NCBI RefSeq assembly: GCF_023499255.1
Contig: NZ_CP092183.1
Span: 503,501-567,500, forward strand
Length of the DNA: 64,000 nucleotides
Direction: 5' to 3'
Source: Couchioplanes caeruleus
GTDB lineage: Bacteria > Actinomycetota > Actinomycetes > Mycobacteriales > Micromonosporaceae
In this document: positions 41,246-54,971 of the stretch, piece after piece
How the letters are laid out: each line of letters opens with the position of its first letter
Position numbering within the stretch: position 1 is the stretch's first letter
Notes under the pieces: generated by a model
What the model saw: the letters and a program-made list of their open reading frames with translations, nothing else
Databases searched by the model: none
Told to the model about the DNA's origin: nothing
Position numbers and translations under genes: made by a program

Positions 41246-41938
41246 TCACCGGATGAACGCGAGCAACCCCACGCCCATGCAGGTCAACAGCACCGGCGTG
41301 AGGCAGGTGATGGCGCCTACCAGGGGCGTACGGTCGACCTTCTCCGAGCCGCCCCCGTACACGAAGCCGATGGTCAGCCAGCCCAGCCCGTACGCGAGCA
41401 CCGGCAGGCTCAGCCCGCACAGCAGCGCGTACGTCGGCAGCGACCCGGACGGCGCGATCAGGTAGAGCACGATCTGCACGATGAGGACGGCCGCCGCGAA
41501 AGGCCCGTACACCAGAAGGTTGCGGGCCCAGGGCCGGAGCGGGAGCGCCGCGGCCGGGCCGGCGCTCAGCATGCCCGCGTCGGCGGCGTCTGCGGTGGCC
41601 CGGGCCTGACGCAGCGCGCCGAGGATCGCCGCCGGGCCCGCGGCCACGGTCTGGGCGGCCATCGCCTGCTCGGCCGGCTGGGGCATCAGGGCGGTCTCGG
41701 GCACGCCGAAGTCCTGCAGCAGCCGGGCACGCTGCGGCGCCAGCCGGGCGCGTACCGCGGAAAGCTCCTGCTGGGCGGCCTGCAGGGTCGCCGCCTGCTC
41801 GCCGGCGGCAGTGCTCGCGGCCCGGCGCACCGCGTCCAGGCGCTGGGCGGCCGCCAGGTAGTCGCCCCACGGGCCCACGGGCTGATCGCCGACGCCGGCC
41901 TCCCCACCGGCCGGCGCGCCCGTGTCCGGCACGCTCAT
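41246..41938 (-). CDS. Coiled-coil membrane protein of the FtsK-like module
   Basis: A 230-residue protein I cannot assign to a family. A Gly/Pro-rich start is followed by a helical, probably coiled-coil stretch (about 28-120, rich in Ala, Gln, Arg) and three or four membrane helices (about 137-162, 167-195, 204-229). The cytoplasmic helical part may dock the ATPase. ATG 41938 overlaps the ATPase stop (ATGA), so the two proteins are probably made in fixed ratio. The helical gene at 40976 follows after 9 bp. Confidence 0.75.
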   Translation of the reverse strand: MSVPDTGAPAGGEAGVGDQPVGPWGDYLAAAQRLDAVRRAASTAAGEQAATLQAAQQELSAVRARLAPQRARLLQDFGVPETALMPQPAEQAMAAQTVAAGPAAILGALRQARATADAADAGMLSAGPAAALPLRPWARNLLVYGPFAAAVLIVQIVLYLIAPSGSLPTYALLCGLSLPVLAYGLGWLTIGFVYGGGSEKVDRTPLVGAITCLTPVLLTCMGVGLLAFIR

Positions 41939-44514
41939 CGGTCCACCTCGGGCTGCACGAACGGCACGAACGTCACCGTACGGCCGGCGTGCCGGTCATG
42001 CAGCAACGCCCTGTTCTCCCGCGGCTGCCAGTCGACGGGCTGGCCCAGCATCAGCGTGACGTCCTGCTGCGGCACGTTGAGGAACACCAGGCCGGCGACG
42101 TCCTCGCGGCCGGTGCTGCCGCCGGTCTCCTCGCTGAACCGGCGCAGCCCGCGCCACCACGACAGCAGGTGCACGCCGCGGCTCGGGCCCTCGCGCAGCA
42201 GCTGACGCAGCGTGGGCAGCGTGCCCGGGCTCGCGGCGTCCATGCCGAACACCACGCGGTAGCCGGGCCGTTCCAGGTCCAGCTCGGCGGCGAGGCCGGC
42301 GGCGTCGACCACCACGACCTCCTGCCGGTGCGCGATCTCCGCGGCGAGGGCCTCGGCGAGGCCGTCACCCTCGGCGACGAGGGACGAGATCACAAATCTT
42401 GTCGTACGGGGTGCGTGGTGGGCGGCAACGCTGCGGGCCGCCGCCTCCAGGACCTCCGCACCCGTCGCCTGCGAGCCGAAGATCGCCAAGTGGCGGCCCG
42501 GGGACGCGTCGAGTGGGAACGCCGCGGTGGACAGGTTCACGTCGATCACCCGCCCGACCAGGGCCGCCGGACGTCCCGCCCGCCCCGCGAGCGCCGCCCG
42601 GTACGTCGGGTCGTCGGCGAGGTGCTGGTGGGCGTACCCGGCGAAGATCCGCGGCGGGGTCGCCTCCGGGTCGCGGGCGCCCCACAGCTTGTGCCGCAGA
42701 TCGCTGAGCACGTCTCGGTCCGCGTGCGGGTCGGGGAAGCGGACGATCCGCTCGTGCCCGCGGGTGGCGCCGCGCGGGCCGCCCAGCCCGCCCGCCGTGT
42801 TGACGACCGCGGTGCCCAGCGGCAGGCCGGCGGCCGAGTCGTTGGTGGGCTCCAGCACGTCGCCGCCGCCGGGCAGCGCGATCCGGACCGGGAACTGGCC
42901 GAAGATCGAGTCGCGCTTGGCGTACAGGGCCTCGACGCCGAGGACGGTCTGGCTGGCGAGCACCAGGTGGATGCCGTACGAGCGGCCCTTGCGCGCCAGG
43001 GACTCCAGCAGCTGCACGGCCTCGGTGGCCATCGGGTCGTTGCCGGCCAGCAGCACCTGGAACTCGTCGATGACGCAGAGCACCCGCGGCATCGGCTTGC
43101 CGCGCCCCTCCTCGGCCGCCGTCGTGCGCAGCTCGGCGAACCGGGTCACGCCCGCCCGCTTGTACGCCACCGACCGGCGGGTCATCTCGGCGTCGAGCTC
43201 GCGCAGCACGGCGAGCCCGTACTCCCGGTCGGACTCGACGCCGACGGCCCGCGCGTGCGGCAACCAGGTCCGGTCCCGCACGGTCGGCACGAACTCGGCG
43301 AACGAGACGCCTTCCTTGAAGTCCAGCAGGTACAGGTTGAGCTCGTCGGGGCTGTACCGGGCGCCCAGCCCGTACAGAACGTTGATGAGGAAGGCGGTCT
43401 TGCCGGCGCCGGACCGCCCGCCGACCATCCAATGCGGAGTGAGGTCGTTGAACTGCAGGACGACGGGGGTGTCCCCGTCATGGCCCACCGTGGTGCCCAG
43501 CCCGTCGGCGGCGTCCCCGGTCCAGAGCTCGTCCGACGGCTCCGGCAACAGGTCGGAGAGCGTCACCTGGGAAGCGGCGACCGAGTGCGCGGTCAACTCC
43601 CGGCACACTGCGTCGACCAGGTGCGGCGGCGGATCCTCGTCCAGGAAGACGGGCGCGTTGAGCCACACCGCCTCCGGCATGGACCCGAACGTCGCCCCGG
43701 GCGGATTGCCCACCACCGCGTACGGATTCCGCAGCGACACCTGAGTGGTACGCGGCAGCGGCGGCTGCATGGTGTCCGGGGTCAGCGGCGGAGGCGGCCA
43801 ACCGGCGACGATCAGATGCAGCCCGGACTCGGGGCCCTGCTGCGCCAGCCAGGCGATCCGGTTCAGTTCCCCACCCTCGGTGAGCTGCGGCAGGCACGCG
43901 ACGACGAGCAGCATCACGCGGTCCCGCCGGTTACGCCGCACCGCACCGCCCCGCGCCGGGCGCAACCACTTCTCCGCCTCGCTGAGCACATCCCGCAGCC
44001 CGCTCAGATCCTCGGCCGGCGGCGCCATCAGCCCGGCATCGGCCAGCATCGCAAACGGCGCGAAAACCGCCCCCCGCGACGCATCGACCCCGCGCACCAG
44101 CAACGACCCGGCGGGCGCGGCGGCCAGCAGGCGCACCAGCAGACAGCGGAGCAGTCCCGCCACCCGAGGATCGCGAGCGTCGGCGTCGATCGTGAGATGC
44201 CCGCTGCCGAGCAACGGAACAATCGCCGGAAAACGAGCATCGTCGAGAGGCTGGGCGACCCCGAGGCGAACGAACTGCGGAGGCTCCGTCCCGCCCAGCG
44301 GCGCAACCGCGGAAGCCGCATCCAGCGGCGACCCCAGCCACCCGGGCACGAGAGCGTTGGCGGCGGCCCGCAACTCCTCGGCCAGCCGATGCTGCTCCAA
44401 CGAATCGGCAGCGGGCGGCGCCTGCCCGTCCAACGCGGCGGCGGCGGCCGCAACGGTGGCCTCCGCCTGGCGGTGCAGGGCAGCGGCCTGCTCGATCCGC
44501 CCCGTCGACGCCAC
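41935..44514 (-). CDS. FtsK/SpoIIIE-type ATPase (EccC-like, soluble)
   Basis: An 859-residue ATPase without membrane helices. Residues 1-330 are a divergent region with an early helical hairpin (coiled-coil with Ala/Glu) and a degenerate nucleotide-binding-like fold. The FtsK domain has Walker A GGRSGAGKTAFLINVLYGLG near 370 and Walker B VLCVIDEFQVLLAG near 484, followed by LVLASQT (sensor) as in EccC and SpoIIIE. A second, P-loop-less domain follows (HLAIFGSQATGAEVLEAA). It resembles EccC more than chromosome-partition FtsK. GTG 44514 has GGAGGTGAGGCG upstream. It may energise export through its coupled membrane protein. Confidence 0.85.
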   Translation of the reverse strand: MASTGRIEQAAALHRQAEATVAAAAAALDGQAPPAADSLEQHRLAEELRAAANALVPGWLGSPLDAASAVAPLGGTEPPQFVRLGVAQPLDDARFPAIVPLLGSGHLTIDADARDPRVAGLLRCLLVRLLAAAPAGSLLVRGVDASRGAVFAPFAMLADAGLMAPPAEDLSGLRDVLSEAEKWLRPARGGAVRRNRRDRVMLLVVACLPQLTEGGELNRIAWLAQQGPESGLHLIVAGWPPPPLTPDTMQPPLPRTTQVSLRNPYAVVGNPPGATFGSMPEAVWLNAPVFLDEDPPPHLVDAVCRELTAHSVAASQVTLSDLLPEPSDELWTGDAADGLGTTVGHDGDTPVVLQFNDLTPHWMVGGRSGAGKTAFLINVLYGLGARYSPDELNLYLLDFKEGVSFAEFVPTVRDRTWLPHARAVGVESDREYGLAVLRELDAEMTRRSVAYKRAGVTRFAELRTTAAEEGRGKPMPRVLCVIDEFQVLLAGNDPMATEAVQLLESLARKGRSYGIHLVLASQTVLGVEALYAKRDSIFGQFPVRIALPGGGDVLEPTNDSAAGLPLGTAVVNTAGGLGGPRGATRGHERIVRFPDPHADRDVLSDLRHKLWGARDPEATPPRIFAGYAHQHLADDPTYRAALAGRAGRPAALVGRVIDVNLSTAAFPLDASPGRHLAIFGSQATGAEVLEAAARSVAAHHAPRTTRFVISSLVAEGDGLAEALAAEIAHRQEVVVVDAAGLAAELDLERPGYRVVFGMDAASPGTLPTLRQLLREGPSRGVHLLSWWRGLRRFSEETGGSTGREDVAGLVFLNVPQQDVTLMLGQPVDWQPRENRALLHDRHAGRTVTFVPFVQPEVDR

Positions 44515-44699
44515 CGCCTCACCTCCGTGTGTGCGCTTGAACCGTACCCTGCAAAGGTCACCCAGGCCCGCACCGCGCAGCCGCGGTCAATCTTCCCAGC
44601 CCAGGCGGACAGGGGTGACGCCCGGGCCTGCGTTCTTCCCCGCCCGGACCCGGAATCCGCGCTCGCACTGCCTGTGCCGTTCTCCCACGGTGGCCGGCG

Positions 44700-44984
44700 T
44701 CAGGCGACACCCTGAGAGACGAGCCGGCCGTCGACGAACGCGTAGACCGGTTGCGGCCGGAACCCGGCGAACAGCAGCTCCCGATGCTTCTCGATCCGCA
44801 CGTGATGCTGCTCCTGAAGCCCGACGACGAACTCGTACCGCTTCACCCGATCAACGGAAGCCAGCCGTACGGTCCGCACCACGTCAACGTCGTCCACCTT
44901 GATGGACAACCGCCCCCAGAACTTGTTGAACGAAAACTCCACCCGGTGCCGCTCACCGACGCCGACATCGAAACCCATCTGCAC
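44700..44984 (-). CDS. Conserved actinobacterial small protein, unknown
   Basis: A 94-residue beta-rich protein: QMGFDVGVGERHRVEFSFNKFWGRL, a repeated KVDDVDVVRTV pattern, KRYEFVVG and ending AFVDGRLVSQGVA. Closely similar small proteins occur in Streptomyces as far as I recall, with no known function. An open frame runs up to 45197, but the leaderless signal TACAGT-7 nt-GTG fixes 44984. It diverges from the membrane protein at 45043 with 58 bp between starts. Confidence 0.72.
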   Translation of the reverse strand: MQMGFDVGVGERHRVEFSFNKFWGRLSIKVDDVDVVRTVRLASVDRVKRYEFVVGLQEQHHVRIEKHRELLFAGFRPQPVYAFVDGRLVSQGVA

Positions 44985-44991
44985 GCCGAGC

Positions 44992-44997
44992 ACTGTA
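44992..44997 (-). promoter_or_regulatory. -10 box, leaderless small protein gene
   Basis: TACAGT on the reverse strand, 7 nt, GTG 44984. Confidence 0.5.
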
Positions 44998-45029
44998 CGG
45001 TTCACCGACCGGTCCACAGCAGAGCCCAC

Positions 45030-45035
45030 TAACCT
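45030..45035 (+). promoter_or_regulatory. -10 box, leaderless membrane protein gene
   Basis: TAACCT, then GATGGAC (7 nt), then GTG 45043. ATG 45037 lies only 1 nt after the hexamer and is therefore less likely as start. Confidence 0.5.
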
Positions 45036-45042
45036 GATGGAC

Positions 45043-45573
45043 GTGCAGCCCATCGACCCGCCCGCCCAGCCGGCGCTCCCACCCCCCACGCCGGCCGCCG
45101 CGCCTCCCAAGCCGAGAAACCGGCGGACGCGGCTGATTCTGGCGATGGTCGGGGGGATTCTGGCGCTGCTCTGCCTGGGCGGCGTAGGAGTCTTCATCTC
45201 CTTCTACGACGAGTCGACCAAAATCGAGCGGAACGCTCCGGACGCGGTGGTGGACAACTTCATCGCCGCCTACCTCGTGAATCGGAACGACGAAGAGTCG
45301 AAGCTCTATACCTGCAAGGACCCGGAGCTGTCTCAGCTCGCAGGGCTCAGGGAAGAGATGTTGAATCGGGAGCGCAAGTTCGGCGTGACGGTGACTGTCA
45401 CCTGGGAATCTTTGCGAATAGGCGCCGGACAAGACGCTAAGAACGTCGGTGTTGATCTGACGATCGCTGGTTCGACGAACGGTCAGCCGCTCAGCCGGAG
45501 AACCGAGACGTGGGATTTCCACGTCGTTGACGAAGACGGTTGGCGGGTGTGCGGGGCTGACAAGACGTCTTGA
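45043..45573 (+). CDS. Membrane-anchored protein with NTF2-like two-Cys domain
   Basis: A 176-residue protein: short Pro-rich N-terminus, one transmembrane helix (about 33-55, LILAMVGGILALLCLGGVGVFI), then a domain APDAVVDNFIAAYLVNRNDEESKLYTCKD...WDFHVVDEDGWRVCGAD. The plan and the two Cys positions parallel the protein at 6384-7259, so they are likely distant paralogues. Codons here are visibly less GC-rich (AAT, GAA, CTA, ATA in the second half) than elsewhere, hinting at a foreign origin. The stop lies 1 bp from the stop of the next gene on the other strand. Confidence 0.75.
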   Translation: MQPIDPPAQPALPPPTPAAAPPKPRNRRTRLILAMVGGILALLCLGGVGVFISFYDESTKIERNAPDAVVDNFIAAYLVNRNDEESKLYTCKDPELSQLAGLREEMLNRERKFGVTVTVTWESLRIGAGQDAKNVGVDLTIAGSTNGQPLSRRTETWDFHVVDEDGWRVCGADKTS

Positions 45574-45574
45574 G

Positions 45575-46180
45575 CTACTCCACCCAGAGGAGATGTACCG
45601 GCACTGAGAGAGTGGGCGGCGTTTTTCCGCTCCAGGCCCAGCGATACCAGTCGAGCTCCGTCGTCACGCGCGCGCAGATGTCGCCGTCGTCGCCGGTGTG
45701 GAGTTCCGTGATTGCCCTCAGATCGCGGCGTTCCCCGCCGTCCTCCAAGAGTTCGATCACCCGCCGTCCCGTGAGGCCGTCGGCGTCCAGGGCCGCCACC
45801 GGGTTGCGGCGGGGTGGTTCGTCCATGGATACGAGGCGGGACATCACGTCGGCCGACCGGGTCGCCGTGCCCGTCATGCCCAGCTCCTCCACCCACACCC
45901 GCTCGACCGGGACCAGCGGGGCGAAGACCTCGGTCTGTTCCGCCTCGGCGCGGTACCACTCGGCTTCCGGCATGACCGGTACGTAGGTCCGGCTGCCCTG
46001 CACCACCTTCTCGTCGGCGCGCAGGTCGGCGCGCCAGCCGTGGCCGGGCAGGCCGATCAGGACGCGGCGGCTCCGGAGGCGGCCGCCCATCGTGGCGGGC
46101 GTGGGCACGATCGGGCGGGGCGGATCCGGCGCCCAGTCGGATCGGCCGGTGAACGGGTCGGGCATCGAACCACCCGTCAC
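45575..46180 (-). CDS. Protein of unknown function, end of T4SS-like operon
   Basis: A 201-residue protein I do not recognise. It has no signal peptide or membrane helix. Segments such as VLIGLPGHGWRADLRADEK, PEAEWYRAEAEQTEVF and TTELDWYRWAWSGKTP suggest an alpha/beta fold with many Trp/Tyr. GTG 46180 overlaps the wall-hydrolase stop (GTGA), so it belongs to the same operon and is its last gene. Being coupled to secretion genes it may be an immunity, effector or regulatory factor; that is a guess. Confidence 0.65.
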   Translation of the reverse strand: MTGGSMPDPFTGRSDWAPDPPRPIVPTPATMGGRLRSRRVLIGLPGHGWRADLRADEKVVQGSRTYVPVMPEAEWYRAEAEQTEVFAPLVPVERVWVEELGMTGTATRSADVMSRLVSMDEPPRRNPVAALDADGLTGRRVIELLEDGGERRDLRAITELHTGDDGDICARVTTELDWYRWAWSGKTPPTLSVPVHLLWVE

Positions 46181-47319
46181 TGCGAGCCGCCCAGCGGCGC
46201 GCCGTGCTGTGCCATGAACTGCACCGGGTCGACCGCGCTGCGGCTCGAGCGGTCGTTGTTCAGGTGGACCTCGAAGTGCAGGTGGGGGCCGGACGAGTTT
46301 CCGCTCGTACCGCTCAGCGCGACGACCTGGCCGGCGGCGACCCGCTGACCCACCTGCAGACTCGGCCTTTGCACCAGGTGACAGTAGCGGGTCATGACGT
46401 TGCCGGCGTGCCGCAGCTCAAGCATCCAGCCGCAGCCGCCCTTCCCGGGGTAGCCGGGCCGGTCGCAGTCCTTCTTGCCGCTGAAGGTCTCGTCGCACTT
46501 GATGCGGGACACGACGCCGCTGGCGACGGACCGTACCGGCGTGCGGAGGCCGACGATGAGGTCGACGCCCTGGTGCTTGGGGCGGCTCGCCGTACGGAAT
46601 CCGGATCCGACGGACCACTGCTCACCCTGCGGCGCCTTCGCCGCCAGCGGGTTGGTCCAACCGGAGGCGGCGACGTCCGCCGCCGACGCGCACACCATGG
46701 ACAGCGAATTGCCGACCGCGTTCGCCGCACCGTCGGCGAGAAGGTTCACGATCTGCGTCGCAATAGGTTCATGCTTCGCGTACGCATCGGGGTAGGCGCT
46801 GATCTGCACGCGCTGCGCCGCGCGCGTCAGCGACATCGACTCCCAGCCGTCGACCGTCTTGAGCTTCTCGTAGAACTTCGTGGCGGCGTACTTGGGATCG
46901 GTGACCTCGGCGGGCGTGCCCCAGCCGCTGCTCGGCCGCTGCTGGAAGAGCCCGAGCGAGTCGTGGTCGTTGCGTTCGCCGAGGTTGCCGAGGTTCGTCA
47001 GCCGCGACTCCTGCATCGCCGTGGCGACCGCGATCACCCAGGCACGCGGCGGCATCTTCAGCTCCGCGCCGACGTTGATGATGATCGCCGCGTTCCGGAT
47101 CTGCGCGGGCCCGTACGGCCGGACGCGCGGCAGCCGCGAGTCGGGGTCGACCGGGCCGCCGGTGCCGCAGCCCGAGCTGTAGAGGGAGAGGTCGTCCTCT
47201 TTGTCGGTGAAGGCGCCGAACACCAGCGCGCTCACGGCTCCACCGCAGCAGAGCAGGGCGAACGTCGCGACCAGGGCCACCAGCAGCACGACCCGCCGGG
47301 GCCGCGGCAACGTCGTCAC
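46177..47319 (-). CDS. Bifunctional wall hydrolase: lysozyme-like + M23 peptidase
   Basis: A 380-residue membrane-anchored hydrolase. A transmembrane helix (about 8-32, VVLLVALVATFALLCCGGAVSALVFG) is followed by a lysozyme/SLT-like domain with catalytic Glu in ATAMQESRL and HDSLGLFQQRPSSGWG. The C-terminal LytM/M23 endopeptidase has the zinc motifs KHQGVDLIVG (HxxxD) and PHLHFEV (HxH). Four cysteines (IKCDE, KKDCDR, GGCGW, RYCHL) lie in the M23 part. This is the VirB1-like peptidoglycan opener expected in a Gram-positive type IV secretion system. GTG 47319 overlaps the previous stop; GGGAGG precedes it. Confidence 0.9.
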   Translation of the reverse strand: MTTLPRPRRVVLLVALVATFALLCCGGAVSALVFGAFTDKEDDLSLYSSGCGTGGPVDPDSRLPRVRPYGPAQIRNAAIIINVGAELKMPPRAWVIAVATAMQESRLTNLGNLGERNDHDSLGLFQQRPSSGWGTPAEVTDPKYAATKFYEKLKTVDGWESMSLTRAAQRVQISAYPDAYAKHEPIATQIVNLLADGAANAVGNSLSMVCASAADVAASGWTNPLAAKAPQGEQWSVGSGFRTASRPKHQGVDLIVGLRTPVRSVASGVVSRIKCDETFSGKKDCDRPGYPGKGGCGWMLELRHAGNVMTRYCHLVQRPSLQVGQRVAAGQVVALSGTSGNSSGPHLHFEVHLNNDRSSRSAVDPVQFMAQHGAPLGGSQ

Positions 47320-47870
47320 GAAGCCTCCCAGTCGACGCCGTCCACCAGCCACTTCCCGTCCGGGCCGACGAGCTGCAACGTCACCTTGCCGGAATCCACG
47401 GTCACCACCGCGTTGGCCAGCCCGTCGCCCACCGGCACGAGCGTGGGCCGCCCGATGACCCGGTCGGCCGGCACGTCCGCGGGGTCCACGCCGTCCAGTT
47501 CCTCGGCAAGGTTCTTCGTCGCGTTGGGCAGGATCCCGTCGTGCCACGTCTTCGCGGACACGTTTTTGTGGTCGACCCACGCCGACGCGAACGCGTACGC
47601 GACAGCCTCGGGCGACGCACTCCCCGGCTTCGCGGTGGGCTTCGGCGCGGGAGCGTCGTCCACGATGACGCCGTCGTCGTCGTGGCTCGGGTCGACGCTC
47701 ACCGTCGGCGCCGGCGACACCGGGTCAAGCAGTTGTCGTCTGCCGTCCCCGCCGTCGGAGAACAGCCGGCCGATGCCGACGACCGCCAGCACCAGCACGG
47801 CGATCACCACGGCAACACCCCAGCGTGACCGGAACAGCCCGGTGAGGCCGCGTTCGAGGACCCTCGCCAC
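47316..47870 (-). CDS. VirB8/TcpC-like single-pass membrane protein
   Basis: A 184-residue protein. One transmembrane helix (about 18-37, GVAVVIAVLVLAVVGIGRLF) leads via a disordered acidic linker to an NTF2-like domain starting at SPEAVAYAFASAWVDH, with the strands LVPVGDGLANAVVTVDSGKVTLQLVGPDGKWLVDGVDW. This is the build of VirB8 and TcpC, the transperiplasmic or wall-spanning scaffold of T4SS. Assignment rests on length, topology and place between the VirB6-like and wall-hydrolase genes, not on sequence motifs. GTG 47870 is 6 bp after the VirB6-like stop. Confidence 0.72.
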   Translation of the reverse strand: MARVLERGLTGLFRSRWGVAVVIAVLVLAVVGIGRLFSDGGDGRRQLLDPVSPAPTVSVDPSHDDDGVIVDDAPAPKPTAKPGSASPEAVAYAFASAWVDHKNVSAKTWHDGILPNATKNLAEELDGVDPADVPADRVIGRPTLVPVGDGLANAVVTVDSGKVTLQLVGPDGKWLVDGVDWEAS

Positions 47871-47876
47871 GGCTGA

Positions 47877-49856
47877 TCACCGGGCCTCGGTGCGCACGCG
47901 GGGCGGTACCTGCTCGCGGGTGGTGCTCCCGGTCTCCGGCCGGTAGATCGCGTACGAGGACGACGATTCGGCCACGTCCGGCTCGGTCCACGTCGACGTC
48001 CGCCGCTGCCGGGCTGCGGGCGCGCCGCCGGCCGCCGGCAGCGGGATGGGACGCCGCTCGGTTGCCGGGGCATCGTCCCGCACCGACTCCGAACCGTCGG
48101 GCCGCGTGGCCGGCGATGTGCCGCCCCGCGTCCCCGCCGGACCGGACGCCACCGCCGGACGGGAGGCCGCGGCGTGCGCCGGGTCCTCCAGCCGTGCCTC
48201 GGGCCGCAGATTGCCCTGCTCGACGTACACGGTGCGGCCCTTGCCGATCTGCGGCTCGTTTGTCCCACCGGCGTCGGCGACGTCCAGCTTCGCGGCCTCC
48301 CGCATGTCCCGGAAGAACCGCCGATGCCAGGACCCGGCGGACGTGATCGCCGCGGTGCCGTCCTTGCCGCCGAGCTGCGTGATCCGCCGGTACGGCCGCA
48401 GCAGGAGCCAGCCCACCACGCCGCAGAGCCACACCAGGACCACCTGCAGCCACCCGGGAAGGCTGGCGGTGTTCATGATCAGGTCAACGGCGAACAGGTA
48501 GATCGCCGCCCCCGTACCGAAGATCGCAATGTTGAAGATCGCCGCGACGACCGCATTGCCGAGCCGACGAATACCGGAACTGGCCGGCCGCAACAAGCCG
48601 ACAGTGCCAAGAATCGGCGCGGCGATGACCGCCCACCGGAAGATCAGGAAGCCGAGCAGGACGAGCAGAGAAGCAGTGAGATCGAACATGGCGAACATGA
48701 CGGCGGCGAGCACGGCAATGAACCCAGCCCCGATCCGATCCATCCCATTGACACCCTGCAAATACTCGTACGCCTCTGGATCCTCGGTCCGAATCTGCTC
48801 AGCAACCTTCTTCCATTGAGCCTTCTTTCGATCCAGCGTGCTTTGCCGCGTTTCCGGGTTGTCGCGCAGTCGCTGGACTTCGCCCCAGGTGAGGGAGCGG
48901 GCGTCGTAAAGTGCGCGCCCGTACTTTTGCGCGGTAGTGCTGTCCGCCGAGCCGAGGAGTCCGCGAAGCCAGTTGCGGTAGAGCATCGTGTCAGTTGCTG
49001 TGTCGCTGGCACGGACAGCCGGCGGCCTGTTGTCCTCGCAGGCCCCGGGTGTGGTGTCATCGCATTGCTGAGAGGGAGTGTTCTGGGCTCGGGGTCCGAC
49101 CGCGTCGTGTACGACACCCAGCGTGGTGATCAAGCTCTGGTCCGCGATGTTCGCGGATCTGACCGGCCATGCGGCGATAGCGGTGACTGCGACCATCACG
49201 AGAATGGCCCAACCCGCCGTCGTCGTGGCTGCGCCCATGTCGGCCTGCCGTGACCGCCAAATCAGATACAGGCCCACGACTGCCAAAGTGATGACGCCGA
49301 AGACGCTGAAGACCTTCTCGTAAACCGCCTTGGTTGCCTGCTCGACCAGTGGGTCGGCCCAACCCCACAGGGTCTGTGGGTCCCAAGCCCTCTCTCGCAA
49401 TGCGTTGGAGGCGCCGATGACCGCGGTCGCGATCATGAACTCACCGTTGGCGACTGTCGTTTCGAACTTGGAGTCCGGGGCGGTGAGCGTGGAAGCGCAG
49501 CCGCCTTCCAAGTCATAGGTCGTGTAGCTGTATCCGGCGTAGCCGTATTGGCTGTAGATGCCTTGGGGGCCGGGTTTCGTCGATGAGGCGGGCCGTTCTG
49601 CGAACCAGCCGGCGAGACCCGAGTCGGGTGCGCTTGGCGTCGGCGGGTTCAGGCATTCCACCCGGTCTCCTGCTACGTCCGCCAGGCGGGAGACGCAGGA
49701 TTTGAAGTCCTGTTTCCATTCGTCCGTGCTGCATGCTCCGCCCGGCGCCTGCAGTGGCCCCGCCATCGCCGGTGCCGGGGCTGCCACTGCCCACGCGATG
49801 CTGGCCACCACCGCGACCGCCCATGTCATGACCATCGCGCAGACCCGGCGGAGCAT
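47877..49856 (-). CDS. VirB6/TrbL-like polytopic membrane protein
   Basis: A 659-residue protein. A signal peptide (about 6-32) leads to an extracytoplasmic region with several cysteines (GACSTDEW, FKSCVS, VECLN, GGCAST). About six membrane helices follow (about 185-205, 215-235, 375-395, 398-420, 440-460, 470-490). A charged, disordered cytoplasmic tail of about 140 residues ends the protein. This matches the polytopic channel protein of T4SS. GGAGGT lies before ATG 49856, and the VirB4 stop is 1 bp upstream (TGACATG). Third codon positions are less GC-biased in the extracytoplasmic loop than in neighbouring housekeeping genes. Confidence 0.75.
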   Translation of the reverse strand: MLRRVCAMVMTWAVAVVASIAWAVAAPAPAMAGPLQAPGGACSTDEWKQDFKSCVSRLADVAGDRVECLNPPTPSAPDSGLAGWFAERPASSTKPGPQGIYSQYGYAGYSYTTYDLEGGCASTLTAPDSKFETTVANGEFMIATAVIGASNALRERAWDPQTLWGWADPLVEQATKAVYEKVFSVFGVITLAVVGLYLIWRSRQADMGAATTTAGWAILVMVAVTAIAAWPVRSANIADQSLITTLGVVHDAVGPRAQNTPSQQCDDTTPGACEDNRPPAVRASDTATDTMLYRNWLRGLLGSADSTTAQKYGRALYDARSLTWGEVQRLRDNPETRQSTLDRKKAQWKKVAEQIRTEDPEAYEYLQGVNGMDRIGAGFIAVLAAVMFAMFDLTASLLVLLGFLIFRWAVIAAPILGTVGLLRPASSGIRRLGNAVVAAIFNIAIFGTGAAIYLFAVDLIMNTASLPGWLQVVLVWLCGVVGWLLLRPYRRITQLGGKDGTAAITSAGSWHRRFFRDMREAAKLDVADAGGTNEPQIGKGRTVYVEQGNLRPEARLEDPAHAAASRPAVASGPAGTRGGTSPATRPDGSESVRDDAPATERRPIPLPAAGGAPAARQRRTSTWTEPDVAESSSSYAIYRPETGSTTREQVPPRVRTEAR

Positions 49857-49857
49857 G

Positions 49858-52800
49858 TCAGACCTCCAGGTCGGAAAGGCTGGGGATGGCCGTCGGCGCC
49901 GCCTTGGCCGCTGCCGGGGTGGTGTCGAGGTGTTCGAGGAGGCCTTCGACGTACGAGACGTCGACCCGGACCTTCTGGACGCGGCCGTCCACGTCCCGCA
50001 TCACGAATTCGCGGAAGCCGAGCCGGGCCGACGACGACGTGTCCGCCTGGGACAGTGATGCCAGCGTGGCCTCGTAGCCGTCGTGGACCGGGACCCGGAG
50101 CAGGCGTAGCGCCTCGGAGGCGATCTCCTGGTCCTCGGCGATGCGGCCGACGAAGACCGTCGACACGAGGTTCTGCACGTCGAGGCCGAGGATGTCGCGG
50201 GGGTTCTGGGAGGCGACCAGCGCGGCGAGGTTCCACTTCCGGGAGTCGCGGGCGAGGCGGACCAGGAACGAGCGGCCCGAGCGCCAGCCTTCCATGAAGT
50301 GCGCCTCGTCGAGGCCGACCATCTTGCGCGACGACATGGACCCGCCGTAGCAGCGGCGGACCGCGAGGCGGTGCGCCGTGTGCAGCATGGGGAGGGCCAG
50401 GGACTCCTCGGCCGACCAGTACTCGCGTTCGATCTTCAGGTCGGGCAGGCGCAGGCCGGCCATCGTGATGACCGTCAGCGCGGAGTCCGCGCCGAGGAGG
50501 TGCTGCGGGGGCCGGCCGAAGAACAGCAGCGCCAGCGGCATCTCCGCCGTGTCCAGCAGGAGGTTGGCCAACTCCTTGCCCTCGTCGTTGTCCAGGCTCT
50601 GGAGGGTGGCGACGACGTCGTCGAGCGTCGAGGTCTCCTCCGCGGGGACCTGCCGTACGGCGTGGCGCAGCAGCGTCGCCGTGGAGGCCTCCTTGGCGAC
50701 CTGCGGCGGGACCAGCATGGAGCAGATGTCCTGGACCAGCATGCGGCGTTCGGCGCGGGCGTTGGAGACGGCGATCTCGTACTCGCGGTCGCCGCCCGGT
50801 CCGGTCGCGAACTCGGTGCGGACCGGGGTGGGGATCAGCGCGTACGGCGCCAGCGTCCCCTGCTCGGAGCCGGTCAGGTTCAGGACCCTGGAGTACGGCC
50901 GCAGCTCCGGCATCTGGCACAGCCGGGCGAGCGGACCGGACGGGTCCAGCAGCGTCACCTGCACACCGCGGCGGGCGTTCAGGTAGCCGAGCGCGCCCAT
51001 GAGGGTGGACTTGCCACCGCCGGGCTCCGCGACGAAGACGCCGAGGCCTGAGCGCTCCCGGACCTCCATGGGGAAGTGCAGGTCGAGGAAGACCGGCCGG
51101 CGGCACGTTCCCGCCGTACGCCCGATCAGGTCTCCCCGGCGGTCGCCGACGGTCGAGGCGGCCTGCGGCAGCGCGGCCGCGAGCAGCTTGACCGGCATGC
51201 GCCGCACGTAGCCGGTGTTGGCGATCGGCTCGCCCGGGATGAACTCGCGGGCCAGCTGGTCCTGGTTCTTCGGGTGCTGCAGCGAGATCCGCAGCTCCCG
51301 CGAGTACAGCTGGATGAGCCGGCGGGCACGCTCGAGGCATTCCTCACGGGTACGCCCGCCCACCGCGATCCGGTGCCAGCCGTGCGCACGTGCGGACTCG
51401 ACCGGCAGGCCCGTGGTCATCTCGTCGCCGATCACGAGCGCGCGTTTGGCGAGACGTTCCAGCTCGGGCGGGGCGTCGATGCCGTGCTCGGCGTAGTCCA
51501 GCTGCTGGGAGCGGATCATCCGGAGCCGGTGCTCGAGGTTCTTGAACGAGCTGTTCGGCCCGAGGATGTCGATGCGCGAGGAGAGCTCCATCGGCCACGG
51601 CAGCCGCTCGTGGAAGTGCATCCACGGCTCGTGCTTCTCGGGAATCTCCAGCGGCTCCATGCGCCCGACGGACAGGACGGCGACGTGCCGCTCCTCGCCG
51701 GTCATGCGGTTGACCAGCTTGACCGTCGAACCGTACGGGGTCCGGTACCGCTCGACCTGCTCGGTCAGCGCGAGCAGGTCACCGCGTTCCCAATGTCCGT
51801 TGGAGACCGGCGAGAGCGGGCCGGGCGGCGCCATGCAGAGCGCGACCGAGCGGAACAGCAGCCATTCCAGCTCCTGCGGGGTGACCCGCCGCCCGCGCAT
51901 GCCGAACGCGTTGAGAACTTCGTCGAACTGCTCGACCGTACGGCCGAGCTTGCGTCGTTCCCCGTCGCTGGTTCCCTTGCCGAACAGCCGCAGTATCCGC
52001 TCGGAGAAGGTGTCACCGAGCGACCGCCGCGCGAACGTCACACCCAGGTACGTCTGCCCCTCGGCGTGGTTGACCGACAGCAGGTGCCGCTGGGCGGCGA
52101 CGAGGTGGTCCGACCACGAGGTCCCGCCGGCGACGTCGGGCAGCGGCTTCGCGGTGAACGAGTCCACCGTCCGGGCCCACTCGTCCGCGGGGAACGGCCG
52201 GTTGGTGCGGCGCAGGTGCAGCCGAAAGCCGGCGAGGCCCGCGTACTGCTCGGAGATCGCGGAGAGCAGCGCCTCGCGCTCGGCGTCGGGGCGGAAGGCC
52301 CACCGCACCTCGGGCAGGTAGTACCAGGCCGTGACCGTGCTCTGGGTGAACGTCAGGTGGCCGGCGATCTCGCTGATCTCGAGCTCGATGGCCGGGTCCC
52401 GGTCGCTGAACTTGAGCTTGTGCGGACGCAGCACCGCGGGCTTGGCGTCCTTCTTGTCCCGCACGGCGGGCAGGTTGTCCGGCTCGTCCCGCTTCTTCCG
52501 CCGCTTCTTCACCGCCTTCTCGGCACGCTGCGCGGGCGCCTTCTCCGGCATCGGCGCCAGGTCGGCATGGTGGTCCGGCTGCGCATCATTCACGTACGGC
52601 GTCAGCGGAGCGACCGGGTGCACGCCGGGAGCGGGGCCGGCGGCCTGCTGCCAGAGCGGCTGGGCCGGCACGGGCGCCGGGGTGATCAGGTCCGGCGCGA
52701 CGGGCTGGACCGGCGCGGCGACACCGGGGCGCGCCTGCTCGGGCCAGTCGGCGAAATCGAGGTCGTCGTCCTCGTGCCCCTCGTAGAAGTCGGCCTCGGG

Positions 52801-53940
52801 TCCGATGGGAGCCCGCATGAACGGCGAGACCGGCGCGTCCGGCGAAGCCCCGATCCTCGGACCGAAGGCCGCGGGAGAACTCGGCACAATGCCCGCGCCG
52901 AGAGGAACGTCCGGGCCGGTAGGAGCGCTAGGGCCAGGGGGAACGCCGAGGCCAGGGGAAACGCCCTGGCCGGAAGGAACGTCCGGGCTAGGGGAAACGG
53001 CGAATATCCCCGGGCCCGGGGAAACGGCCGGGCCGGGAGGCATCGTCGTCTCGAGCGGCAGAACAGGCCCGGCGGGCAGGTCGAACGCCGTGGGTGGGGC
53101 GACCGAAGGCGGCGTGACCGCAGGCGGGGCCGAGGTCGGCCGGGTGAAGGCCGGCGCCCCGGAAGTGGGCTGCGCCGGAGCAGGCGGCCCGGAAGCCGGC
53201 CGCACAGAGGCGTGGCCGCTCGGATCAGGCCGGGCGGGGGCGTGGCCGCTCGGGTCAGGCCGGGCGGGGGTGGGTGCGCCGAGGTCGGGCTGCGCGGACA
53301 TCGGCTGCTGGTCAATAACCTGCCGCGGTGGCGGTGCGGGCGACACCGGAGTGACGGGCCGCGCGCCGGTCACCAGGGGAACCGTGGGCCGCGTGTCGGA
53401 CGGCGGCATCTCCGGCTGATGACCGTTGGCCGGCGCACCCGGCGCACCCGGCGCACCCGGCGCGGGCGCGGGCGGTGGGGTCACGGATGGTTGAGGCATC
53501 GGTGCACCCGCGGCCGGTGACACGGGCCGGGCGCTCGGCACAGCAGGACCGGCATCGGGTGCAGCGGTCGCGGCCGACGATGAGGCCGGCGTTCCCGCTG
53601 CCCGGCGGGCGTCCTCGCCCTCGAAGTCGAACCCGAAGTCGAAGTCGGCGTCCGGGTCGTCCGGCGGCGTGGTGGCCGGCTGGTGCTGCGGTGCCGGGCT
53701 GCCGAACAGGTCGAGGAACGGCGAGTCGATGTCCATCGGGTCCACCGGCGGCGGCGTGCCGTTGGTGCGGGGGCGTACCGGCTGGGGAGCCTGGAAGACG
53801 GCGACTGCGCCGTGGCCGGGGCCGGCTACCTGCTCGAGGGACTCCTCCGGAGCGTAATCGTTCGGTCGCCCAGAGTTACCTTGCCTGCCCTGGGGGGACG
53901 ACTCCGCTCGGGAAGGGCCCGGCGGTGGGGTAGCGGTCAT
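49858..53940 (-). CDS. VirB4/TraC-like ATPase with very long Pro-rich N-terminus
   Basis: A 1360-residue protein. Residues 1-440 are Pro/Ala/Gly-rich and disordered, with repeated PDPSGHA and AP-type units. A basic stretch EKAVKKRRKKRDEP (about 455) precedes a folded domain. The C-terminal ATPase has Walker A VAEPGGGKSTLMGALGY near 975 and Walker B KMVGLDEAHFMEGW near 1211, plus LAALVASQNPRDIL, the VirB4 signature. It should power pilus or channel assembly. ATG 53940 is chosen (MTATPPPG); ATG 53961 is an alternative. The N-terminal tail may be a cytosolic tether. Confidence 0.88.
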   Translation of the reverse strand: MTATPPPGPSRAESSPQGRQGNSGRPNDYAPEESLEQVAGPGHGAVAVFQAPQPVRPRTNGTPPPVDPMDIDSPFLDLFGSPAPQHQPATTPPDDPDADFDFGFDFEGEDARRAAGTPASSSAATAAPDAGPAVPSARPVSPAAGAPMPQPSVTPPPAPAPGAPGAPGAPANGHQPEMPPSDTRPTVPLVTGARPVTPVSPAPPPRQVIDQQPMSAQPDLGAPTPARPDPSGHAPARPDPSGHASVRPASGPPAPAQPTSGAPAFTRPTSAPPAVTPPSVAPPTAFDLPAGPVLPLETTMPPGPAVSPGPGIFAVSPSPDVPSGQGVSPGLGVPPGPSAPTGPDVPLGAGIVPSSPAAFGPRIGASPDAPVSPFMRAPIGPEADFYEGHEDDDLDFADWPEQARPGVAAPVQPVAPDLITPAPVPAQPLWQQAAGPAPGVHPVAPLTPYVNDAQPDHHADLAPMPEKAPAQRAEKAVKKRRKKRDEPDNLPAVRDKKDAKPAVLRPHKLKFSDRDPAIELEISEIAGHLTFTQSTVTAWYYLPEVRWAFRPDAEREALLSAISEQYAGLAGFRLHLRRTNRPFPADEWARTVDSFTAKPLPDVAGGTSWSDHLVAAQRHLLSVNHAEGQTYLGVTFARRSLGDTFSERILRLFGKGTSDGERRKLGRTVEQFDEVLNAFGMRGRRVTPQELEWLLFRSVALCMAPPGPLSPVSNGHWERGDLLALTEQVERYRTPYGSTVKLVNRMTGEERHVAVLSVGRMEPLEIPEKHEPWMHFHERLPWPMELSSRIDILGPNSSFKNLEHRLRMIRSQQLDYAEHGIDAPPELERLAKRALVIGDEMTTGLPVESARAHGWHRIAVGGRTREECLERARRLIQLYSRELRISLQHPKNQDQLAREFIPGEPIANTGYVRRMPVKLLAAALPQAASTVGDRRGDLIGRTAGTCRRPVFLDLHFPMEVRERSGLGVFVAEPGGGKSTLMGALGYLNARRGVQVTLLDPSGPLARLCQMPELRPYSRVLNLTGSEQGTLAPYALIPTPVRTEFATGPGGDREYEIAVSNARAERRMLVQDICSMLVPPQVAKEASTATLLRHAVRQVPAEETSTLDDVVATLQSLDNDEGKELANLLLDTAEMPLALLFFGRPPQHLLGADSALTVITMAGLRLPDLKIEREYWSAEESLALPMLHTAHRLAVRRCYGGSMSSRKMVGLDEAHFMEGWRSGRSFLVRLARDSRKWNLAALVASQNPRDILGLDVQNLVSTVFVGRIAEDQEIASEALRLLRVPVHDGYEATLASLSQADTSSSARLGFREFVMRDVDGRVQKVRVDVSYVEGLLEHLDTTPAAAKAAPTAIPSLSDLEV

Positions 53941-53983
53941 GCGAGGGCCCCGTTCGGGCATGCAGCGAGAGTGGCGAACCTGG

Positions 53984-54346
53984 TCATACCAACTCCTCCC
54001 GTACCCGGATGCGCGTGGCGACGAGTCTGGGGTCCCGTTGCTCGACGGCCGGCTCCCTCGTCCGCTTCCAGTCGGTGAGGGCGGTGCGGATGACCATTCT
54101 CGCGGGCCGGTCGGGGTCGACGTGCCGGAAGACATAGGAGGTCGTCACCATGGCGAGGGCGATCTCCCAGGCGGGGAAGGCGTCGAACTGCCACGTGATG
54201 AGGTAGTGCAGGAAGACGAAGACTGGGACGAGGAGGACGAACATCCCGTACTGCGCGTACGGCAGGTGCATCGGCAGGGTGTATCCGGGCGGGCCGAGAT
54301 AGACCAGGCGTGCCCGGTAGATGTCGTCATCGGTGCGCAGCCGCAT
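53984..54346 (-). CDS. VirB3/PrgI-like membrane protein
   Basis: A 120-residue protein with two adjacent membrane helices (about 33-52, YGMFVLLVPVFVFLHYLITW, and 57-74, FPAWEIALAMVTTSYVF), followed by a basic cytoplasmic tail (DWKRTREPAVEQRDPR). This is the size and topology of PrgI/VirB3, which sits between the pilin-like and VirB4 genes in most T4SS operons, as here. Sequence similarity is not decisive. ATG 54346 has a weak ribosome site (GAAG); the gene starts 13 bp after the pilin stop. Confidence 0.75.
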   Translation of the reverse strand: MRLRTDDDIYRARLVYLGPPGYTLPMHLPYAQYGMFVLLVPVFVFLHYLITWQFDAFPAWEIALAMVTTSYVFRHVDPDRPARMVIRTALTDWKRTREPAVEQRDPRLVATRIRVREELV

Positions 54347-54359
54347 GGGTCTTCGGGCC

Positions 54360-54656
54360 TCAGCTGAAGATGAGGTCGATGAGGTAGTCGCCGACGAAGA
54401 AGAGCGTCGCGGCGCCGGCGATGAACGCGAGGCCGACGATGGCGATCGCGCTGCTGGTCAGCACCTTGGAGATCTCTCCGCGGCTGGCCCGGCCGATGAA
54501 GATGATGCCGAGCACGGCCAGCAGGATCGGTGCGATGTTGCTCGCGAAGAAGGTGACGACGCCTTCGGTGTTGATGCCCTTGGGCTCGGGGGCGGCAAGG
54601 GTGGCGCCGTGCTGGACCGCCGTCGCGACCTGCGCGGCGAGTTCGGTGGCGATCAT
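54360..54656 (-). CDS. VirB2/TrbC-like pilin subunit
   Basis: A 98-residue protein. A short N-terminal part (AAQVATAVQHGATLAAPEPKG) is followed by two hydrophobic helices (about 33-55, FFASNIAPILLAVLGIIFIG, and 66-95, LTSSAIAIVGLAFIAGAATLFFVGDYLIDLIF) joined by a short basic loop RASRGEISK. This fits VirB2 and TrbC pilins, though a clear signal peptidase site is missing. GGGAGG lies 8 nt before ATG 54656, and no gene precedes it on this strand, so it probably heads the T4SS-like operon. Confidence 0.72.
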   Translation of the reverse strand: MIATELAAQVATAVQHGATLAAPEPKGINTEGVVTFFASNIAPILLAVLGIIFIGRASRGEISKVLTSSAIAIVGLAFIAGAATLFFVGDYLIDLIFS

Positions 54657-54971
54657 CGGTAAACCTCCCGGGTGACCGGCGTGAGGGCGCCGGACACGCT
54701 GCAGTTGTGAAGCCTGACGGCAACGCCCATATGGTGCTACTTCCCGCTCACCGCGTCGAGTGCGCGGTCACGATCCTGAAGGGCTCTGCTGTCCTACCCA
54801 CGCCCGTCTGCTCTCTTCGGTTCAATAATGATGCCTAGCTCCGAAGCGTACGGGCCGTACTTCTTACCTACAAGCTGCCTGATTCGTTACCCAAGGTAAA
54901 GGCGTGACTGAACTTGAGTCACGCTGGATCGTACACGTGTGCGAAGATCGTCCGCCGGTAGCGTCGTCGGG
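54657..54971. promoter_or_regulatory. Divergent regulatory region, T4SS-like operon / folP
   Basis: This 315-bp, comparatively AT-rich gap has three inverted repeats: GTACGG-G-CCGTAC (54848-54860), TTACC-CAA-GGTAA (54887-54899) and GCGTGACT-GAACTTG-AGTCACGC (54902-54924). They lie 48-124 bp before the folP start and about 190-270 bp before the pilin gene. They are candidate operators; no cognate regulator is encoded nearby. ACACGTGT at 54931-54938 is a further short palindrome. Confidence 0.55.
54959..54964 (+). promoter_or_regulatory. -10 box, leaderless folP
   Basis: TAGCGT, then CGTCGGG (7 nt), then GTG 54972. Confidence 0.55.

Follow-up and report, generated by a model that had tools for sequence, protein, structure and literature searches.

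The 64,000-nucleotide stretch of the Couchioplanes caeruleus chromosome analysed here (the window; contig NZ_CP092183.1, positions 503,501 to 567,500, from a genome of 8.42 Mb in a single contig) carries an operon predicted to encode a type IV secretion system (T4SS) module of the VirB type, and this operon is a core chromosomal module of the Micromonosporaceae at one conserved place, not an accessory element. Our best explanation, to which we give a probability of roughly 0.55, is that it is a domesticated plasmid transfer channel, whose predicted task is to drive protein, or a short fibre of pilin, across the cell wall. A preliminary description, made from the sequence alone, had reported seven co-oriented and mostly coupled genes; this arrangement is confirmed, the minus-strand genes at 45575-54656 following one another with gaps of -4 to 43 bases in the order V2, V3, V4, V6, V8, LYZ and U201 (our labels; Table 1), with V4 starting at an ATG (53940) and LYZ at a GTG (47319). 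Its author knew of no description of the operon, and the literature, as far as the sources were accessible, has given us only a VirB4-like gene noted in Micromonospora lupini (PMC4182475); this is probably the same locus, since that strain carries it (L147), although the locus tag could not be matched.

A core module of the Micromonosporaceae

The VirB4 core is present in 192 of 200 sampled Micromonosporaceae genomes, representing 41 of 44 genera, and in 179 of 184 when only good-quality genomes are counted. Identity within the family is 82-100% among the matches listed, and the core of the close relative Nucisporomicrobium flavum is 100% identical to that of the window. In a sample of the whole class, 57 of 296 genomes gave matches to the core; three of the 57 belong to Micromonosporaceae, three others match at 37-40% identity, and the remaining matches are short or have identities of roughly 32% or less.

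A survey of gene order, which the preliminary description had proposed, was made on the best 80 of 221 loci, a choice that biases the set to close kin; the 65 that exceed 22 kb are referred to as full-length. The order folP, V2, V3, V4, V6, V8, LYZ, U201 and an FtsK-like gene is kept in 62 of these 65, the exceptions being two loci with no FtsK match and one without folP, V2 and V3. Because the best 80 are also the most similar, an independent set of 18 loci was picked across genera: folP lies beside V2 in all 18 and U201 is present in 17, while FtsK falls within the stretch in 14 of the 17 long ones and, by coordinates, just outside it in two more.

Median identity across the 65 loci is highest for VirB4 (93%) and declines through V3 (88%), V2 (79%), V6 (71%), U201 (66%) and LYZ (59%) to V8 (52%), against control medians of 85% for folE (43 loci), 83% for ftsH (36 loci, partial matches) and 77% for folP (64 loci). 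Pairwise dN/dS in five pairs is 0.018-0.097 for VirB4 versus 0.10-0.23 for folP. Purifying selection on the operon genes is shown, and constraint on the chromosomal copy resembles that on host genes. The lack of a relaxase had earlier been taken to argue against a self-transmissible element; we agree that the operon is non-mobile, but because of its conserved place and sequence, and do not retain the missing relaxase as an argument against DNA transfer.

Subunits and plasmid relatives

The VirB names first proposed hold for VirB4, VirB6 and VirB8, and only moderately for VirB2 and VirB3. By sequence comparison, V4 is a VirB4 ATPase, V6 a VirB6-like membrane protein and V8 an NTF2-like protein of VirB8 type, components by which a VirB-type T4SS is recognised. 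V4 matches AAA_10 at 4.2e-23 and, as its best named match, TcpF at 1e-20; its Walker motifs are intact, with G454, G456, K457 and D691-E692 invariant in nine sequences. A proline-rich N-terminal extension of about 520 residues (window 52381-53940) precedes the conserved core, which begins at about 52380, and is itself poorly conserved, being matched in 54 of the 65 loci with a median query coverage of 0.16. The PF03135 (CagE_TrbE_VirB) profile has no match in the genome, despite the presence of VirB4, and a protein search with VirB4 found no second copy there at E 1e-3; PDB sequence searches with VirB4 (single sequence and profile) and with VirB8 gave no match. V6 aligns with a V6 family from Streptosporangiales (hhalign E 6.8e-18, 99%), one member of which, in locus L066, matches TrbL at 2e-9.

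V2 aligns with the corresponding Streptosporangiales family at E 1.1e-5 (81.5%), one member of which matches TrbC/VirB2 at 8e-4, and it is present in 64 of the 65 loci. V3 finds the positionally equivalent gene of plasmid pRJH2 by blastp at E 7e-15. V3 may be a TcpE protein, but its own TcpE match is weak and a clear one (9e-26) occurs only in the Streptosporangiales sister operon. Profiles of V2 and V3 found no family match in family libraries and no structure match in a PDB sequence search, and neither these two nor V6, V8 or U201 have a usable direct family match in profile library scans. LYZ had been called a lysozyme/M23 hydrolase, and its muramidase-like and M23 domains bear this out, with E104, H249, D253, H314, H346 and H348 invariant in 30 sequences. 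The 201-residue product of the last gene does belong to no known family; as its fold gives only weak barrel matches, we claim no function for it.

A tblastn search with the VirB4 core matched 335 plasmid records, none above 60% identity, of which 146 are from Enterococcus, with other Firmicutes also represented; 188 are typed mobilizable, 136 non-mobilizable and 11 conjugative (mobility types are those of PLSDB). The 25 best matches are actinobacterial, with 31-37% VirB4 identity, and we opened 13 of those listed, 12 linear and one circular, all typed non-mobilizable. Read as frames or annotated genes, each has the same succession: two or three small ORFs first, then VirB4, V6, V8 and finally a wall hydrolase; by profile, V3 (at the equivalent place), V4, V6 and LYZ are matched in order on all 13, V8 on nine, V2 on seven and U201 on four. 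Homologues of all seven genes occur on two linear plasmids (L180, L183), while the other eleven have homologues of five or six genes. The order (V2-)V3-V4-V6-(V8-)hydrolase is shared with these mostly linear plasmids, for example those of Streptomyces (sp. NEAU-S7GS2, SN-593 pRVR2, 891-h, NBC_01304) and Rhodococcus (pGD02.2.1). The plasmid operons differ in that their hydrolase is annotated as NlpC/P60 (eight) or M23 (five) and in that a ParA gene is usually near (within 15 kb on 11 of 13). Ten have an FtsK/SpoIIIE annotation no more than 15 kb away; of the remaining three, the first has a gene annotated as a conjugative DNA-transfer ATPase, which matches PF02534 at only 0.021, the second has an ORF without annotation immediately upstream of V2, and the third has none in reach. 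On the opened Rhodococcus linear plasmids the VirB-like operon adjoins FtsK, and records of R. equi (Prescottella equi), among them NZ_KF439868.1, give VirB6 matches of about 25%.

Among 72,556 plasmid records, five carry a U201 relative. Four of these are opened VirB plasmids; the fifth match is partial and lies on a Thermobispora plasmid, where the 32 kb opened contain phage genes and nothing annotated as a T4SS. Orthology of the window FtsK with the plasmid FtsK was rejected (blastp E 0.005 in comparison with four plasmid proteins), and no hydrophobic stretch occurs among the first 100 residues of the window protein, whereas the four plasmid proteins checked have such stretches at their N-termini; we therefore propose plasmid ancestry for the operon, not membership of the plasmid systems. 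In a VirB4 tree of 31 rows, the Micromonosporaceae clade (100/100) is joined to the plasmid clade at 80/74 and a Streptosporangiales clade stands apart, with long branches that make the deeper joins unsure. Together these comparisons suggest that the closest mobile relatives of the operon are actinobacterial plasmids with the same gene order, and that it was likely domesticated from a relaxase-less transfer module of actinobacterial linear plasmids.

The Streptosporangiales clade represents a second chromosomal operon, seen in Actinomadura, Nonomuraea, Streptosporangium and Thermomonospora, in which TrbC-, TcpE-, VirB4-, TrbL/VirB6- and VirB8-like proteins and a hydrolase are encoded in the same order. 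Its VirB4 is likewise very conserved (81-95% among the best 120 matches listed), but has about 30% identity to that of the window; the one hydrolase scanned combines NlpC/P60 and SLT domains, and a U201 profile found no match in 13 Streptosporangiales loci. In Streptosporangiaceae (L066:14293-18351; L065, L067-L077) a long linker and then a MinD/ParA-like domain, its Walker A motif degenerate (GGAGQT), come after a VirB3 of the TcpE family; the MinD/ParA-like domain was seen in 13 of 13 loci and TcpE in ten of the 13 stretches, both within one ORF in the three seen whole (L066, L067, L073).

Genomic neighbourhood

Beyond U201 lie an opposite-strand gene, an FtsK-like unit, an endoribonuclease L-PSP gene and folE, and beyond V2 a divergent folP-folB-folK group, whose gene names we assigned from sequence. 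The FtsK-like protein matches PF01580 at 9e-20 and, below the respective cut-offs, EccCa (1e-27) and TraG-D_C (8e-4). The Rv0361-like gene, whose longer ORF matches NF051431 at 2.8e-5, below cut-off, is opposite to the operon and directly downstream of U201 in 80 of 80 loci. The FtsK/EccC-like ATPase, its 230-residue partner and the Rv0361-like gene (41246-45573) accompany the operon in nearly all loci without being collinear with it. A 94-residue ORF (44700-44984) was considered as a conserved part and left out, being found in one of 65 loci only. The spacer between V2 and folP has a block conserved in 61 aligned rows (54814-54878) and gave no match in an Rfam search. No relaxase or VirD4 gene scored over cut-off in the operon or the neighbouring ORFs scanned, as had been reported at the outset, nor did an integrase among those ORFs, the element ends and oriT being unsearched.

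Table 1. The operon and its conserved neighbours (window coordinates).
Feature	Description	Position	Strand	Basis
V2	VirB2/TrbC-like small two-TM protein, 98 aa, first gene	54360..54656	-	hhalign, plasmid profile matches
V3	VirB3/TcpE/PrgI-like membrane protein, 120 aa	53984..54346	-	blastp and plasmid profile matches
V4	Predicted VirB4 ATPase, 1360 aa	49858..53940	-	AAA_10, TcpF, invariant motifs
V6	VirB6/TrbL-like polytopic membrane protein, 659 aa	47877..49856	-	hhalign
V8	VirB8-like, 184 aa, N-terminal helix 16-38 and NTF2-like domain	47316..47870	-	
LYZ	Bifunctional wall hydrolase, 380 aa, muramidase-like and M23 endopeptidase domains	46177..47319	-	invariant residues
U201	201 aa, last gene, predicted two SH3/Tudor-like barrels	45575..46180	-	matches no known family
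FtsK-like	FtsK/SpoIIIE, EccC-like ATPase, 859 aa, conserved neighbour	41935..44514	-	PF01580, EccCa below cut-off
230-aa gene	Neighbour overlapping the FtsK-like gene	41246..41938	-	in 63/65 full-length loci
Rv0361-like	Membrane protein, convergent with U201, conserved neighbour	45037..45573	+	NF051431 below cut-off
V2-folP spacer	Conserved blocks at about 54814-54878, probable promoter region	54657..54938		61-row alignment

Protein, fibre or DNA

If the operon exports protein or assembles a fibre, the VirB4 ATPase would dock on VirB3 and, with VirB6 and VirB8, form a membrane channel; the lysozyme-M23 enzyme would open the peptidoglycan, and a short fibre or lining would form from extracted VirB2 subunits. 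Substrate delivery might dispense with VirD4 and proceed either by a Ptl-like route or by the neighbouring FtsK/EccC-like protein, a possible coupling ATPase, with U201 perhaps acting as cytoplasmic adaptor. The predicted setting is hyphal growth or sporulation, and by analogy with the distantly related CmdABCDEF of Streptomyces a developmental setting of this kind is likely. Protein export without VirD4 is established for Ptl (review PMC12857230), and the T4SS of Patescibacteria, VirB4-centred, mostly relaxase-less and with VirB2-like pilins, has been proposed as co-opted (PMC12102498); the latter belongs to another phylum, has another gene arrangement, and is likened here by description and not by sequence.

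Several points weigh against this explanation. Export of protein or a fibre is a function that we infer; no effector gene was found, no search aimed at one having been made, and both the plasmid relatives and the FtsK-like neighbour would suit DNA as well as protein. That neighbour is separated from the operon by the opposite-strand gene, is not orthologous to the plasmid FtsK, and comes from a family that gives 2-7 matches per genome. Support for the VirB2 and VirB3 assignments is only moderate. The direction of descent is unproven, given the joining fork of 80/74 and the long branches, and freedom from relaxases is not general among the plasmid kin: besides the mobilizable and conjugative VirB4 records (188 and 11 of 335), 30 of 78 actinobacterial plasmid records matching V6 are typed mobilizable, so that it is no rule for the whole plasmid group. 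Finally, V8 and LYZ reach dN/dS values of 0.56-0.63 in the Spirilliplanes pair.

A developmental complex for sporulation or segregation, equivalent to CmdABCDEF and with secretion secondary or absent, overlaps with the explanation we prefer, so the odds of the two are not exclusive; it is a serious possibility, if one we would not back outright. Micromonosporaceae and the Streptosporangiales groups carrying these operons are mycelial, so that both operon families found occur in mycelial groups. CmdABCDEF (SCO4126-4131 of S. coelicolor, grouped here with SLP2.19-23) is also a chromosomal, VirB4-bearing membrane operon, of six genes; PMC2782261 describes it as needed for normal sporulation, its loss causing branching, septation and chromosome-segregation defects without significantly changing transfer of an SLP2-derived plasmid. 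However, the subunits differ: no operon protein matches the SCO6880 family, to which CmdC is assigned through the resemblance noted in that paper and not by comparing S. coelicolor sequences, and the sole SCO6880-family protein over cut-off in the genome lies elsewhere, on an island at 3.03-3.11 Mb. Orthology with Cmd is therefore unsupported and CmdABCDEF is a distant relative of a different subfamily.

The main rival to protein or fibre export is the movement of DNA. A host-owned VirB channel might let double-stranded DNA, from the chromosome or from plasmids, cross septa or move from one hypha to another, and since an FtsK/EccC-like ATPase would do the pumping, a relaxase would not be needed; we regard this as unlikely, but as deserving attention. 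The TraB protein of Streptomyces transports double-stranded DNA with no need of other T4SS subunits (PMC12857230). Relaxases are missing from five sequenced linear plasmids of M. avium, which carry T7/T4 hybrid genes, and are found on 32 of 78 putative linear plasmids (PMC12803027). As the same operon occurs on plasmids typed non-mobilizable beside FtsK-type genes, a missing relaxase alone is no bar to DNA transfer. On the other hand, the window FtsK is EccC-like, non-orthologous to its plasmid counterparts and beyond the opposite-strand gene; in our judgement, purifying selection across a whole family, as seen here, is rare for genes of DNA transfer; and that the plasmids use the operon for transfer is itself a presumption. 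The MPF-FATA class (Tcp/Tn916/pCW3-type) uses an FtsK-type coupling ATPase. It shares with the operon TcpF as best named VirB4 match, a V8 fold like that of TcpC, TraM and PrgL, and a hydrolase; the operon differs in having no relaxase found alongside, in being a family core gene set and in falling below all curated cut-offs of the class models. An FtsK-like neighbour is present in 63 of 65 loci, yet the opposite-strand gene intervenes in 75 of the 75 loci that have both. More speculative still, and somewhat less probable, is the idea that the chromosomal operon and its linear-plasmid kin constitute an undescribed class of relaxase-less VirB channel fed double-stranded DNA by FtsK/SpoIIIE motors, the Micromonosporaceae copy having become a permanent organ that carries DNA across septa or from hypha to hypha.

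The preliminary description had allowed that a relaxase and coupling protein elsewhere might serve the operon, and profile searches did find a TrwC relaxase (3073327-3074376) and a VirD4 (3054924-3056141) on the same chromosome, 2.5 Mb away. They lie on the island at about 3.03-3.11 Mb, together with a primase, the SCO6880-family protein (9e-89), a 556-residue VirB4-like ATPase and VirB8-like and lysozyme-like genes of its own; it is probably a separate integrative and conjugative element. TrwC, the only relaxase family surveyed across the Micromonosporaceae, occurs in 43 of 200 genomes, two of which (G347, G378) have no V4, so 41 of the 192 V4 carriers have it and 151 do not. With an island so equipped and most carriers without TrwC, service to these proteins in trans is very improbable. 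In the genome itself TrwC and PF03432 were the relaxases searched, and the latter gave no match. A third T4SS-like locus (L091, about 2.394-2.398 Mb) has a 582-residue VirB4-like ORF overlapped by a long ORF whose C-terminus, judged by eye, is VirD4-like. With no relaxase or VirD4 over cut-off in the scanned neighbours and TrwC missing from 151 of 192 carriers, the operon is not conjugative in the usual way. That it is a decaying or ordinary integrated conjugative element, as homology to plasmid transfer genes might suggest, is barely credible given its conserved place and order, the purifying selection, a position and presence that are neither variable nor patchy, and the lack of a relaxase in it and of an integrase among the neighbouring ORFs scanned (ends unsearched).

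What is new here is that the closest mobile relatives of the operon are actinobacterial plasmids with the same gene order, four of which carry even U201. Transfer of the linear plasmids pVAPN and pNSL1 is stated to be T4SS-independent in PMC6852188; that view would be called into question by the presence of this operon, with FtsK-type motors next to it, on linear plasmids that are typed non-mobilizable, and the movement of linear actinobacterial plasmids becomes a directly testable question. Conserved chromosomal copies in two lineages would be a clear example of how a conjugation channel can become an organ of its host. For the Micromonosporaceae, a complete VirB-type machine would belong to the core gene set of a large actinomycete family, one that was probably overlooked, as most of its genes are without a family match.

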